Below, one piece after another: positions 48,692 through 54,596 of a stretch of 64,000 nucleotides of DNA (positions within the stretch are counted from its first letter, which is position 1; each line of letters starts with the position of its first letter). Source of the DNA: Halopiger xanaduensis SH-6 (GTDB lineage: Archaea > Halobacteriota > Halobacteria > Halobacteriales > Natrialbaceae); contig NC_015666.1 of the NCBI RefSeq assembly GCF_000217715.1, positions 3,174,270-3,238,269 of the forward strand, in the 5' to 3' direction. The position numbers were made by a program, and so were the translations under genes. The notes beneath the pieces are model-generated. The model did no database searches and was not told where the DNA came from. It saw nothing but the letters and a program-made list of their open reading frames with translations.

Positions 48692-49486
48692 TCAGCGAAC
48701 GAGCGCTCTAGCGTACGCCGAGACGGCCTCGCTGAGGATAACAACGGCGAGTATCGTTAGCAGGATCATCGAGACGGACTGCCACGCGAAGGCGTTGACC
48801 GCGTGGAACAGTTCGAAACCGATCCCGCCGGCTCCGACGAATCCAAGGATCGTTGAGTCGCGGACGTTGATATCCCACCGATACACGGAGAGGCCGACCA
48901 GTGCGGGTTTAACCTGCGGAACGATCCCGTACAGCATCGTCTGCACCGACGAGGCGCCTGCAGCGCGAACCGCTTCGACTTGTCCGTAGTCAATCTCTTC
49001 GATCTCCTCGCTGAGCAACTTGCCGAGGAATCCGACGGACCTGAACGCGATGGCGACGACCCCGGCGAGCGGCCCCGAGCCGAAGACGACGACGAAGATC
49101 AGCGCCCAGACGATGGTGTTGACCGACCGACTCACGGTGACGGCCACTTTTCCGAGCCAGTAAGTCGCGACGTTCGGCGTCGTGTTTTCCGCCGCCAAAA
49201 GCGCGACCGGGATCGACATTACCAACGCTCCTGCGGTACCCAATACGGCGATATGTATCGTCTCGAGAAGCGGGCCGAGAATCTCGCCCGTGTAGGCGAC
49301 GTCGGGCGGGTACATCCGGGTCAGCAGGTCGTTTATCTCCCGCGGGATCGTGCTCGTTTCGACGAATCCCATGTCGAGGTACTTCCAAGAGGCGACGACG
49401 ACGATCGTCCCGGCGAGGAGAGCGACGAATCGACCGAGCCGCCGCCGCCGATCGAACCGTTCCCAGGTAGCGCTATCGACCGACAT
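48692..49486 (-). CDS. phnE: Phosphonate/phosphate ABC transporter permease (second PhnE)
   Basis: 264 residues, about six hydrophobic helices. The cytoplasmic EAA-type loop reads EAVRAAGASSVQTMLYGIVPQVKP, closely parallel to the same loop in the upstream permease. IRVSTIPREINDL-type residues are absent; instead [24 protein letters not shown] is the PhnE-specific segment. The two permeases probably form a heterodimer. The start overlaps the end of the first permease gene by one base. Confidence 0.9.
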   Translation of the reverse strand: MSVDSATWERFDRRRRLGRFVALLAGTIVVVASWKYLDMGFVETSTIPREINDLLTRMYPPDVAYTGEILGPLLETIHIAVLGTAGALVMSIPVALLAAENTTPNVATYWLGKVAVTVSRSVNTIVWALIFVVVFGSGPLAGVVAIAFRSVGFLGKLLSEEIEEIDYGQVEAVRAAGASSVQTMLYGIVPQVKPALVGLSVYRWDINVRDSTILGFVGAGGIGFELFHAVNAFAWQSVSMILLTILAVVILSEAVSAYARALVR

Positions 49487-50334
49487 TACTGGTACCTCCG
49501 TCTAACGAGTGCGCTTACGCCTTCGGCGACGAGTACGACGGCGATGATTGCGATCAGGATCGCGGTCACGTAGCCGTAATCGTACCGCTCGAACGCCGTG
49601 AGGAGGATCGAGCCGATACCGCCAGCTCCGACGATTCCGACGATCGTCGACGTACGGATGTTGATATCCCAGCGGTAGACCGAGAGGCCGGCGAATCGCG
49701 GGACGATCTGTGGTACGACGCCGTACACCAGCGTCTGAATCGGCGACGCGCCCGTCGCACGGACGGCGTCGACGCTTCCCATATCGATGTCCTCCAGATC
49801 TTCGGCGAGCAGTTTCGAGAAGAACCCGACTGTCTTGAACGTGATCGTGATGATTCCGGCGAGGGGGCCGAGCCCGACCGCTTTCACGACGATAATCGCG
49901 ACGATGATCGCGTTAAACGCGCGCGAGATGGAGATAAATCCGCGGTTGAGATAGTACAGCGGTTTCGGAGAGAGGTTCTCGGCGGCCATGAACGCGATCG
50001 GGACGCTGAGAACGATTCCCGTCACCGTCGATACCATCGCCATGGCGACGCTTTCGAGCATCTTGTCGACGATGCGAGCCGCCTGCCGGTCAGTCGCTCG
50101 CGGTGGGAAGAAGTCCCCGAGCAGCGTCACGCTCCGGCCGATACCCTCGATGACTCGAGACGGATTCACGCCGAGATCCCACGTTGACCAGAGGAAAAAC
50201 GCCACGATTGCGGCGTAGACGCTCCACTTGATCTCGCGGCGACCGAATACGGTCGGTCGCTTCCACTGTCGGTTGCTCGTCGCCACGTCAGGTCCCTCCG
50301 ACGGTTCGTTCCGATCGTTCGATCGCGTCGCCAT
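49486..50334 (-). CDS. phnE: Phosphonate/phosphate ABC transporter permease (first PhnE)
   Basis: 282 residues with about six membrane helices. The EAA-type loop reads [24 protein letters not shown], and [24 protein letters not shown] follows, matching the sister permease. From the ATG at 50334 the gene overlaps phnC by 47 bp; an in-frame GTG at 50286, just after the phnC stop, is an alternative start that would remove 16 residues of polar N-terminus. Both permeases are in a phnD-C-E-E order. Confidence 0.9.
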
Positions 50335-51133
50335 CGGGCTCGGTCGTTCCGCCGTCGCGGGCCGATTCGTCCGTCTCCTCGATATCGGCAGTACGCCCTT
50401 TGCCGCGGTAGATGCGGTCCATACTCCGGTCGTCGAGTTCGCCCGGCGTCCCTTCGAAGACCAGTTCGCCGTCGTGGAGTCCGACGATGCGGTCGGCGTG
50501 AGACCGCGCTAGGTCGACCTCGTGGATATTGATTAACACCGGAACGCCCCGCTCGTCGGCGATGTCGGTCAATAATTCCATCACCACGTCTGACGTCTCC
50601 GGATCGAGGCTCGAAGTGGGTTCATCGACCAGGAGGATCTTCGGGTTCTGGATCACCGCGCGGGCGATGCCGACTCGCTGGCGCTGTCCGCCGGAGAGTT
50701 CGTCGGCGCGCTTGTTCTCCATGCCGCCGAGCCCGACGCGGTCGAGGATTTCGAAGGCGCGGTCGACGTCCTCGGCGGGAAAGTCCCGACGGAACGCCTT
50801 CCACGCGGAGAGGTGCCCCAGGCGACCCGTGAGAACGTTCTCCATCACGGTAAGTCGCTCGACGAGGTTGTACTCCTGGAAGATCATCCCGATGTCGCGG
50901 CGCGCCGAACGGAGGGCGTCGTTTTTCAGGCCCGTCAACTCCGTGCCGTCGAGGTAGATCTCGCCACTCGTGGGCTCCGTGAGACGATTCACGCACCTGA
51001 TAAACGTACTCTTCCCCGCGCCGCTGGGGCCGATCATCGCGACCGTCTCGCTCCCCTCGACCGTCAGATCGACACCGTTCAGGGCCACGTCACCGGTCGA
51101 GTACGTCTTCCGGAGATCGGCTACCTCGAGCAT
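50288..51133 (-). CDS. phnC: Phosphonate/phosphate ABC transporter ATP-binding protein
   Basis: 281 residues. Walker A is GPSGAGKST, the signature motif is [14 protein letters not shown], and Walker B is [12 protein letters not shown] with the switch His in [34 protein letters not shown] is a typical PhnC Q-loop region. The C-terminal 35 residues are acidic and polar, and they overlap the permease gene. The start ATG is 3 bp from the phnD stop, so phnD and phnC are co-transcribed. Confidence 0.94.
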
Positions 51134-51136
51134 CGG

Positions 51137-52288
51137 TTACTCACTCAGCGAACCCTGTTCGTACTCGACGTCGTTGTACCGCTGGATGACCATGATGTCG
51201 TACCAGTGTCTGCGGTACTCGATCGGCACGAACTCCGTGTAATCGGTCCGTTCGGCGTAGGCCGTTCCGCTGAAATCGGTCTCGAGCCACGCGGCCTTGA
51301 TGCCTTCGATGATGTCCGGATGGAGGTTGTACCGGTAGGCGATCGGTCCGTTCGGGAACGGGTTCGACGCCCAGACGATTTTGAAGTCGTCGAACTCGAG
51401 ACTGCTGTCGCCCTCGACGGTGTCTTTCATACAGGTCGAACAGATCGGACCGGCGTCGTAGTCCCCGTTTGCGATCCCGCGGGTTGTCTGGGAGTGGCCG
51501 CCGGAGAATTCGACCTCGTAGTCCTCTTCTGGCGTCACGTCGAACTCCTGATCGAACAGCGCCGACGGCGCCTGGTGGCCGGAGTTCGACGCCGGCTCCG
51601 CGTGGGCCATCGTGACGTCGTCTCGAGCGAAGTCTTCGACGCTCTGGATATCGTCGGCATCGGCTCGCGTCGTGGCGAACAGTCGGTACCCGAACGCACC
51701 GTCGGAGCCGATACCGACTGCGAACGGAACCGCACCGCAGAGGTTGACCGCGAACGCGGTCGTTCCGGTCGAGAAGTTGGCGATGTGTGCACGCTCCGAC
51801 CGCATCGCTTCGACGGACGCCGCGTAGTTGTCGACCTTGTTGTACTCGACTTCCTTGCCGGTCTCCTCTCGGATGCGGTCGAATATCGCTTCGAAGTCCT
51901 CCTCGTATCGTCCCTGCACGTCCTCGCTGGGGCTCTCGGTGAAGACGAGCGTATCCGGATCCAGCCACTCGCTCTCGTTCTCCGGAGTCTCCTGGACCGG
52001 CTGGCCGTGGGGGACCTCGTCGACCTCGCGATCGCCCATGTTCTCCAGGTCCTCAGTGGAGCCGCGCTCGTACCCCGCATCGATGAGCGGGGACGCGAGG
52101 TAGTTGTTTTCCTCCCAGTTCGGAGTAGCGAATTCGAACTCGTCTCCGTCGGCTAACATCGGATCCCCGGATCCGTCTCCGCCGTTTCCACCGGACCCGT
52201 CAGAGCTGGTACAGCCTGCCAGTCCCGCAACGATAGTCGCAGCCGAACTCGTCAGGACAGTGCGCCGATCGGCGTAGTATTTCGACAT
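51137..52288 (-). CDS. phnD: Phosphonate/phosphate-binding lipoprotein (PhnD-like)
   Basis: 383 residues from the ATG at 52288. The signal reads DRRTVLTSSAATIVAGLAGC, that is twin-arginine-like plus lipobox, followed by a Ser/Gly/Asp linker; so it is an exported lipoprotein. The mature part resembles PhnD periplasmic binding proteins (TLVFTESPSEDVQGRYEEDFEAIFDRI, and later DYDAGPICSTCM). The ligand could be phosphonate, phosphite or phosphate. No phosphonate-cleaving genes (phnG-M, phnX, phnA) are next to it. The promoter has a TATA element at 52314-52323 and an inverted repeat at 52360-52389. Confidence 0.9.
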   Translation of the reverse strand: MSKYYADRRTVLTSSAATIVAGLAGCTSSDGSGGNGGDGSGDPMLADGDEFEFATPNWEENNYLASPLIDAGYERGSTEDLENMGDREVDEVPHGQPVQETPENESEWLDPDTLVFTESPSEDVQGRYEEDFEAIFDRIREETGKEVEYNKVDNYAASVEAMRSERAHIANFSTGTTAFAVNLCGAVPFAVGIGSDGAFGYRLFATTRADADDIQSVEDFARDDVTMAHAEPASNSGHQAPSALFDQEFDVTPEEDYEVEFSGGHSQTTRGIANGDYDAGPICSTCMKDTVEGDSSLEFDDFKIVWASNPFPNGPIAYRYNLHPDIIEGIKAAWLETDFSGTAYAERTDYTEFVPIEYRRHWYDIMVIQRYNDVEYEQGSLSE

Positions 52289-52313
52289 CACGCTGACCGA
52301 GGAAGAGCGGTAG

Positions 52314-52323
52314 CATAATATTC
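52314..52323 (-). promoter_or_regulatory. TATA box of the phnDCEE operon
   Basis: Minus-strand GAATATTATG is centred about 30 bp before the phnD ATG at 52288. A second AT-rich element (GTATAAG, minus strand of 52331-52337) lies 16 bp further upstream. Confidence 0.55.
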
Positions 52324-52359
52324 TGTATTTCTTATACGTTTGAGACACTACTACTGTTG

Positions 52360-52496: not shown

Positions 52497-54596
52497 TTAT
52501 CGGAGGCGATCGAGTTCCTCGATCGTCTCCGGATTCTCGATGCTGCTCAGGTCGCCCGGATCGTCGCCGGTGTAGGTCGCCTCGATGGCGCGGCGAACGA
52601 TCTTCCCCGATTGGGTTTTGGGGAACTCGTCGACGAACAGCACCTCGCGCGGGCGGAACGGTTTGCCCAACTCGGCGCCGACCTGCGCCCGGAGTTCCTC
52701 GCGGAGGTCATCCGACGCCTCGTAGCCGTCCTCGAGGACGACGTACGCGACGACCGCCGTCCCTGTCGTCTCGTCCGGCGCGCCGATCGCCGCGGCCTGG
52801 TTGACGGCCTCGTGGTCGATCAGCGCACCTTCGACTTCGGCGGGGCCGACCTTGCGGCCGGCGACGTTCAGGGCGTCGTCGGCGCGGCCGTGGAGGAACC
52901 AGAAGCCGTCTTCGTCCCGCTGGGCCCAGTCGCCGTGATCCCACAGATCCTCCCAGGTCGACCAGTACTCCTCGAGGTAGCGCTCGTCGCCCGCCCACAG
53001 CGACTTCGTCATGGAGGGACAGGAGCTACGAGCGACGAGGTAGCCGCGCTCGTTGTCGTCCTTCACGGAGTTGCCCTCCTCGTCGACGATGTCGATGTCC
53101 ATCCCGAGGCCGGGGCCGCCCAGCGTGCAGGGTTTGAGCGACTGGATCGGCATCGGCATCAGGAAGCAGCCACAGATCTCGGTGCCGCCGGAGATGTTGA
53201 TGATCGGGCACTCCCCGTTTCCGACGTTCTCGTAGAACCAGCGCCAGGACTCGGGATCCCAGGGTTCGCCCGTCGAACCCAGTATGCGCAGCGAGGAGAG
53301 GTCGTGATCCTCGAGCCACTCGTCCTCTCCGACTCCCACGGAGCCGGACGGCTCGTCAGACGCAGTCTGACGTTCGCCGTGCTTGCGGAGCGCCCGGACG
53401 GCGGTCGGCGAGATGCCGAACTGCGTCAGGCTGTGCCGATCGATCATCGCCCAGAACCGGTCCGGATCGGGGTAATTGGGCGCCCCCTCGTACATGAACA
53501 CGGTGCCGCCGAAGGTGTGGGTCCCGATCAGCGTCCACGGCCCCATCATCCAGCCGATGTCCGAGACCCAGAAGAACCGATCGGCAGGTTTGAGATCCAT
53601 TCCGAAGTAGACCTCCTTGGCGCACTGAACCTGCACGCCCGCGTGAGTCTGGACGATCCCCTTCGGTTTTCCCGTCGTCCCCGACGAGTACAGCAGCATC
53701 GACTCGTGGCTCGAGGGCAGCGATTTCGTCTCGTAGGCGTCGTCCTGCGTCTCGACGGCCATTTCCCACCACTCGTCACGGCCGTCGGTCCAGGGAATTT
53801 CGTGCTCGTTGCGCGTGTTACTGCTACCGAGCCTGTCGAAAACGATCGCGTGCTCGACGTGCCCCGCCTGTTCGATCGCCTTGTCGGCCGTCGACTTGAG
53901 GAAGACCGGATCGCCCCGCCGGTAGAAGCCGTCGCCCGTGAACAGCACCGAACACTCCGCGTCCTCGAGCCGCGTCGCGACCGCGTCGACGCCGAAGCCG
54001 GAGAAGATCGGCACCGCGATCGCGCCGACCTTGAGACAGCCGTAGAGGATCGCGACGACCTCCGGAACCATCGGCATGTAGAGGCCGACGGTGTCGCCCG
54101 TCTCGACGCCTCGTTCCTCGAGGGCGTTCGCGACCTGATTCACCCGGCGGTGGAGTTCGTGGTAGGTTACCTCGCGAACTTCGCCGTCCTCGCCCTCCCA
54201 GATGGTCGCGACGTTGTTCCGCCGTTCCTCGTCGACGGCGGCGTGTCGGTCGACGACGTTGTGGGCGACGTTGAGTTCGCCGCCGACGTACCAGTCGGTG
54301 AACTGCGGCCCGTCGCTGTCGTCCCGTATCTCGTCGTAGTCTTCGTCAAATTCGATTCCGAGGTAGTCGACCACCTCGTCCCAGAACCATTCGAGGCCCG
54401 ATTCTTCGATCCCCTCGAGATCGGTCGTCGTCCGCTCGATCAGGTCCTCGTAGTCGTCGATCCCGTACGTCTCCATGAAGTCGTAGACGTTCGCCGACTC
54501 GACGAACTCGGGATCGGGTTCGTGGGCGTCTTCGTCGACGGTCTCGAGATCGCCGTCGCCGTCAGCGTTTGCGTCGGTGTCGGTGTGCTCGGGCAT
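52497..54596 (-). CDS. AMP-forming acyl-CoA synthetase with palindromic insertion
   Basis: 699 residues, ANL superfamily. It has the P-loop YSSGTTGKPKG (about residue 302), WVSDIGWMMGPW, RILGSTGEPWDPESW and the hinge HGRADDALNVAGRKVGPAEVEG; the catalytic Lys is in KTQSGKIVRR. Where acetyl-CoA synthetase has WWQTETGG this protein reads ISGGTEICGCF, so the acyl pocket differs and acetate is not assured. Propionate or another short acid is plausible. Between LRKHGE and DEWLEDHD there are about 17 extra residues (RQTASDEPSGSVGVG) coded by tandem hairpin DNA at 53341-53372. Confidence 0.9.
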   Translation of the reverse strand: MPEHTDTDANADGDGDLETVDEDAHEPDPEFVESANVYDFMETYGIDDYEDLIERTTTDLEGIEESGLEWFWDEVVDYLGIEFDEDYDEIRDDSDGPQFTDWYVGGELNVAHNVVDRHAAVDEERRNNVATIWEGEDGEVREVTYHELHRRVNQVANALEERGVETGDTVGLYMPMVPEVVAILYGCLKVGAIAVPIFSGFGVDAVATRLEDAECSVLFTGDGFYRRGDPVFLKSTADKAIEQAGHVEHAIVFDRLGSSNTRNEHEIPWTDGRDEWWEMAVETQDDAYETKSLPSSHESMLLYSSGTTGKPKGIVQTHAGVQVQCAKEVYFGMDLKPADRFFWVSDIGWMMGPWTLIGTHTFGGTVFMYEGAPNYPDPDRFWAMIDRHSLTQFGISPTAVRALRKHGERQTASDEPSGSVGVGEDEWLEDHDLSSLRILGSTGEPWDPESWRWFYENVGNGECPIINISGGTEICGCFLMPMPIQSLKPCTLGGPGLGMDIDIVDEEGNSVKDDNERGYLVARSSCPSMTKSLWAGDERYLEEYWSTWEDLWDHGDWAQRDEDGFWFLHGRADDALNVAGRKVGPAEVEGALIDHEAVNQAAAIGAPDETTGTAVVAYVVLEDGYEASDDLREELRAQVGAELGKPFRPREVLFVDEFPKTQSGKIVRRAIEATYTGDDPGDLSSIENPETIEELDRLR
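53341..53372. repeat. Tandem palindromes inside the acyl-CoA ligase gene
   Basis: Two adjacent perfect inverted repeats: GAGCC-GGAC-GGCTC (53341-53354) and CGTCAGAC-GCA-GTCTGACG (53354-53372). They coincide with an in-frame insertion of about 51 bp in an otherwise conserved part of the enzyme. This has the appearance of a small palindromic mobile element that keeps the reading frame. Confidence 0.7.

Follow-up and report, generated by a model that had tools for sequence, protein, structure and literature searches.

The Rickettsia palindromic elements (RPE; PMC2635572, PMC3733652) are the closest functional analogue of the haloarchaeal elements described here. In both cases, small pieces of palindromic DNA are found in frame in many unrelated genes, are tolerated by the proteins, are dispersed and have no transposase of their own. 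Unlike the RPE, the haloarchaeal elements consist of two short hairpins whose loops have 3 nt and whose stems vary, 45-51 bp in all, and as far as tested there is no common sequence, the comparison being limited to the pattern of the first hairpin (hp1) followed by RGC, without any RPE consensus. The CGTC-tagged REP repeats (Di Nocera et al. 2013, PMC3733652) are known from five bacterial phyla, with no archaeon in the main text of that paper. These repeats also resemble the haloarchaeal elements, in having a CGTC or TGTC tag beside the hairpin (to be compared with the ACG or ACA that follows the second haloarchaeal hairpin, hp2, on the other strand), heterogeneous stems of about 8-9 bp, dimers, no dedicated transposase and intragenic copies, including copies in tRNA synthetase and helicase genes. 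Their loops are 4-5 nt long, whereas those of the haloarchaeal elements are mostly 3 nt; they have A-T pairs at stem positions 1-2, which are absent from the haloarchaeal elements, and they do not show the fixed pair of hp1, linker and hp2. They also have an unpaired CCA-like tail; on the tagged strand, the linker of the haloarchaeal elements is TGCC(A) or TGGCT, though its place is between two hairpins. Because the loop length and the base pairs at the foot of the stem differ, the haloarchaeal elements are not classified here as CGTC-tagged REPs.

The nearest haloarchaeal reports concern the PATEs and SMRs of Haloquadratum (PMC3119063), which are small, transposase-free mobile repeats with palindromes, some of them only 52-110 bp long. 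They are likewise haloarchaeal, palindromic and associated with sequences of the IS605 type. Unlike the double-hairpin elements, however, PATEs are tied to IS605 ends and SMRs are 80-110 bp long with terminal inverted repeats, and neither is described in that paper as an in-frame insertion in core genes. Closest in shape are the double-hairpin or repetitive hairpin elements of the mitochondria of fungi and sponges (PMC2800124), which occur in genes and are believed to be mobile. They share with the haloarchaeal elements the two adjacent hairpins, the in-gene copies and the tandem multi-hairpin forms, but are organellar and eukaryotic, and the likeness is one of shape, without a sequence comparison. 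In-frame double-hairpin elements of haloarchaea are not described in the literature searched, which was restricted to open-licence papers and left subscription journals outside.

The insert in the acyl-CoA ligase gene

The window (the whole stretch of 64,000 nucleotides of Halopiger xanaduensis SH-6 that was analysed) contains one such copy, within the following features:

52497..54596, minus strand: host gene, an acetyl-CoA-synthetase-like acyl-CoA ligase of 699 codons (open reading frame, NCBIfam, PDB homologues)
53325..53375, minus strand: the whole element, a 51-bp in-frame insertion of 17 codons, missing from 63 of 73 orthologues, including that of the same-genus genome G001
53354..53372, minus strand: hp1, CGTCAGAC-TGC-GTCTGACG, read as RQTASD; a perfect 8-3-8 inverted repeat, dispersed in haloarchaea
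53349..53353, minus strand: linker AGCCG (family consensus RGC / RGCCA)
53328..53348, minus strand: hp2, TCCGGCTCC-GTG-GGAGTCGGA, 9-3-9 with one G.T pair; perfect or covarying in orthologous copies

The host ligase matches the NCBIfam acetate--CoA ligase models with E 1e-178, under the curated cut-off, and its PDB homologues are 8rpk and 1pg3/1pg4. The 17 extra residues, ERQTASDEPSGSVGVGE, are located between KHG and DEWLE and fall at a gap of 8rpk, between two conserved blocks. On the coding strand, the insert has the order GAA-hp1-AGCCG-hp2-GAG, and its exact phase is ambiguous by 3-6 nt. The AlphaFold model of the ligase, with a mean pLDDT of 37.7, is unusable. That the protein tolerates the insert is inferred from the insert position and from the open frames, the function of a filled enzyme being untested. 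Genes resembling those of a phosphonate-type ABC transporter (permease, ATPase and substrate-binding protein, from ORF translations only) adjoin the ligase gene at 49486-52348 of the window.

In the initial annotation, two perfect inverted repeats (5-4-5 and 8-3-8) and 17 unexpected residues between KHG and DEWLE had been noticed, and both observations hold. The repeats are present on the plus strand, as GAGCC-GGAC-GGCTC at 53341-53354 and CGTCAGAC-GCA-GTCTGACG at 53354-53372, and the residues are lacking in 63 of the 73 orthologues. The 5-4-5 palindrome does not hold as a unit: it results from one hp2 arm together with the linker and shows no conservation of its own, the meaningful second hairpin being that at 53328-53348. 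The placing of a 51-bp segment at 53340-53395 also failed, the insert being 53325-53375. In shuffled versions of the window, the expected number of occurrences of the 8-3-8 repeat with its adjoining AGCC is about 0.01, up to 3 mismatches being allowed.

The coding-strand unit at the ligase site is hp1 (CGTCAGAC nnn GTCTGACG), AGCC(A), hp2 and GAC(G). Most of the other copies there have a perfect hp2, TCCGGCTCC nnn GGAGCCGGA, and in the Halorubrum copy (L132) the arms covary, as TCCGACTCC/GGAGTCGGA. Among the filled ligase rows, the identity at third codon positions is 94% in the stems and linker, as against 58% in the loop codons and 60-73% in the flanking gene. Conservation of the stems in the ligase insert is thus at the level of the DNA, with the loops drifting.

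Patchy presence at orthologous sites

The ligase orthologues were gathered from 100 related genomes, and 73 rows were compared, with the filled and empty states taken from one genome per species. The insert is found at the same place in 10 rows and is absent from the other 63. The filled rows are those of the window, six other Natrialbaceae genomes, Halorubrum sp. GN11_10-6 and strain AArc-T1-2, which has two filled paralogues, one on the chromosome and one on a plasmid. On a maximum-likelihood tree calculated without the insert, the filled rows require 9 changes of state, and the grouping of all of them in one clade is rejected. In G001, the ligase is 90% identical and the insert is absent. 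Spreading of the ligase insert by short-tract gene conversion was considered and not retained, there being no clear local rise in identity.

The genome to which the window belongs has five solid copies. Four of these, in the genes of the ligase, an S9 peptidase, a PAS/GAF sensor kinase and nicotinate phosphoribosyltransferase, are in frame, and the fifth, at the end of dnaK, spans the stop codon. The S9 peptidase insert is 51 bp long here and in G003, 45 bp long in G017 and missing in most relatives, including G001, whose protein is 96% identical; the hp1 stems of the G017 copy covary (CGCGGGAC against CGTGGGACTCC). Among the copies at the orthologous site in dnaK, both partners are changed in two pairs. 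The same-genus genomes G000 and G001 differ at the ligase, S9 peptidase and dnaK sites, with a protein identity of about 90-96%. As a separate observation, elements with different stems occupy the S9 peptidase site in different genomes (L330, L322, L241); it is possible that this shared site is a hot spot, or else an old site with drifting stems. At two dnaK 3' ends (L283, L279), a further hairpin insert lies beside the double hairpin or replaces it, as nested insertions.

A family defined by its architecture

With at most one mismatch, hp1 is present in 38 of 100 relatives, versus two genomes for a reversed control pattern. Across 84,980 species, the pattern of hp1 followed by RGC is matched by 72 stretches, of which 71 are haloarchaeal and none comes from Rickettsia. 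The same pattern has no match in the viral contigs of IMG/VR, and viral carriage is rejected on this ground. A perfect second stem of at least 7 bp follows within 6 nt in 61 of 73 hp1+RGC matches and at 258 of 20,000 random positions (1.3%). A palindrome arising by chance or codon bias is rejected by the shuffles, by the control pattern and by this excess of hp2 after hp1+RGC. Unbiased 400-kb samples of this genome and of Halorutilus also contain double hairpins with other stems but with the same linker and end.

The covariance model R1, built from equal-length copies, detects at least one copy in 84 of the 100 relatives and, in a phylum-wide draw, in 20 of 24 genomes of the same order and in 0 of 124 others. 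In 27 copies not used for training, 97.5% of the cells are paired, two-sided changes are seen in 15 of 16 pairs, and the cells with two-sided changes number 114, versus 32 in shuffles. This agrees with stem sequences that vary by compensatory change, with the reservation that the covariation set was found by a structure model and is biased towards paired stems. The linker is RGC in 65 of 68 distinct copies, RGC being part of the selecting pattern, and it is mostly RGC also in the model matches found without that pattern. Of the 68 distinct copies, 55 have ACG at most 4 nt after hp2, and ACG or ACA follows hp2 in 26 of 27 model matches, this flank being contained in the model itself.

The hp1 stem has 8 bp and a loop of 3 nt, whereas the hp2 stem has mostly 7-10 bp (13 at most, in dnaK), with loops of 3 nt in 52 of 90 cases and of 2 nt in 17 of 90. 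The first stem pairs are mostly C-G, G-C in hp1 and U-A/C-G, G-C in hp2. The insert lengths measured are 45 or 51 bp, 45 bp (19+3+19+4) being the standard and 51 bp the length of those in the ligase and S9 genes, and the reading frame is therefore kept. At the element, Rfam gives no match above the gathering score (six loci), and a known RNA family is rejected accordingly.

In-frame copies are found in LeuRS, ValRS, PheT, TrpA, TrpE, CarB, LysX, CobN, PurL, PurC, Kae1-Bud32, RNA polymerase subunit D, nicotinate phosphoribosyltransferase (NAPRTase), a helicase, S9 peptidases and ABC transporters; the trpA gene of Haloferax prahovense has one element. PheT and a CbiX-like gene have the same hp2, CTCCGAGTC, which is also present in LysX with a paired change. 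Because hp1 is palindromic, its RQTxSD frame, which is stop-free and hydrophilic, reads the same in either orientation. In Halorutilus (G068, L086:3-2018), an in-frame element lies in a protein that matches intein (Hint) domains.

The family, its architecture, the in-frame positions, the patchy presence at orthologous sites and the DNA-level conservation of the stems are established by these data. The proposal in the initial annotation of a family of in-frame palindromic elements like that of Rickettsia is borne out by the copies in many unrelated core genes, with the refinement that the family is not one DNA sequence but is defined by two hairpins, an RGC linker and an ACG end. Two outcomes had been named there as refuting the proposal, namely that all orthologues have the residues without the DNA palindrome being conserved, or that no other copy of the DNA exists in any haloarchaeal genome. 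Neither applies, as the residues are not universal and copies are found throughout haloarchaea. Its remark that no haloarchaeal counterpart is described agrees with the literature searches for this form, within open-licence papers.

Possible spread and rival explanations

The segment is likely to be one copy of a dispersed, non-coding and non-autonomous palindromic element of haloarchaea, in which two short hairpins are connected by an RGC(CA) linker and (G)ACG comes after them; the stems usually have 7-10 bp and most of the loops 3 nt. By inserting into a variable loop between conserved blocks, such an element would lengthen the protein and not destroy it. Its spread may proceed through hairpins in single-stranded DNA that are recognised by some trans-acting enzyme, as proposed for REP repeats; this route is inferred, and it is favoured as the most likely one with only modest confidence. 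The stems would then drift, while copying from one arm to the other, or selection on the fold, would keep the palindrome perfect; old copies would be lost or decay. Present-day mobility is inferred from the patchiness and is not demonstrated, no strain-level gain having been observed. No mobilising enzyme has been identified, which counts against the mobile-element reading. The element count does not correlate with that of Y1 (IS200/RAYT-type) transposases (Spearman -0.005), and all 26 good genomes without Y1_Tnp still carry elements, by which a dependence on Y1 transposases is rejected. A target-site duplication is weakly supported by flank similarity (permutation 3/2000), its length being unresolved.

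The main rival, which remains possible, is that of one ancient insertion per site followed by many independent precise losses, the family now being immobile. The scatter at the ligase site is also compatible with this history; in the ligase insert, the loop codons are about as diverged as neutral sites (58%), and a nearly identical hp2 occupies the site in genomes of different families (Halorubrum L132). On the other hand, most of the filled rows, across distant clades, have an empty row as their sister, so that many precise losses are needed, the losses leave no footprint, and G000 and G001 differ at three sites although they belong to the same genus. It is unlikely that the elements are terminal-only remnants of the IS200/IS605 type, moved by Y1 transposases, in which near-terminal palindromes are fused after deletion of the core, as in 52-bp PATE-like copies. 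In favour of such remnants, 52-bp terminal-only copies of ISHwa23, possibly mobile, are reported in PMC3119063, and many copies lie in or beside tnpB and IS605-type ends. However, the core-gene copies are without other IS sequence, the stems differ widely between sites, the Y1_Tnp data given above show neither correlation nor dependence, and in the AT-rich genome G189 the element is inserted within the tnpB C-terminus, which points to cargo and not to an end.

Formation of the hairpins separately at each site by replication template switching, with fold-back copying of the target and no moving element, is very unlikely. The outer hp2 arm of the S9 peptidase copy is indeed the native target GACGGGC, and the upstream flank resembles the hp2 arm more than permuted pairs do (3/2000), but unrelated genes and genera have hp1, the linker and the ACG end in common, and one hp2 (CTCCGAGTC) recurs in PheT, the CbiX-like gene and LysX. 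As a rule for every site, hp2 as a target copy is rejected: it is true for the S9 peptidase and fails for these three genes, where hp2 is borne by the element. Haloarchaeal proteins often have acidic, hydrophilic loops, which speaks for an ordinary variable protein loop with a palindrome due to chance or codon bias. Such a loop is all but excluded, as the DNA is common to unrelated genes and the synonymous sites of the stems are conserved (94%) above those of the flanking gene.

Returning to the dispersed palindromic element, a bolder reading can be put forward, which is somewhat less likely than not. The elements may represent an undescribed class of archaeal mobile elements that is defined by architecture, has freely evolving but perfectly palindromic stems, is moved by an unknown enzyme and is recruited as in-frame peptides in essential proteins. 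In-frame palindromic insertion is in any case not peculiar to a few bacteria, as it is found across haloarchaea in LeuRS, ValRS, PheT, RNA polymerase D and purine-synthesis enzymes. The elements account for hydrophilic indels of 15-17 residues with RQTxSD motifs in some haloarchaeal proteins, and they are markers for dating insertions. They also raise the question of what moves an element that is recognised by its fold and not by its sequence in genomes without Y1 transposases; with the trpA copy of Haloferax prahovense, genetically tractable relatives are at hand.

Longer forms and copies associated with tnpB are also observed. Several tnpB genes (G189 L358-L366, L053, L120) carry one to several double hairpins, and the nine near-identical copies at the tnpB C-terminus in the AT-rich G189 have probably been multiplied with the IS. 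Arrays in which three to about ten hairpins follow one another are present at L039:1378-1700 (G070:C2), L367-L371 (G064) and L377 (G174); their linkers alternate (AGCC(C)/GGACGTT or AGCA/GACAG), their stems differ, and some of the arrays advance in tandem 45-bp steps.
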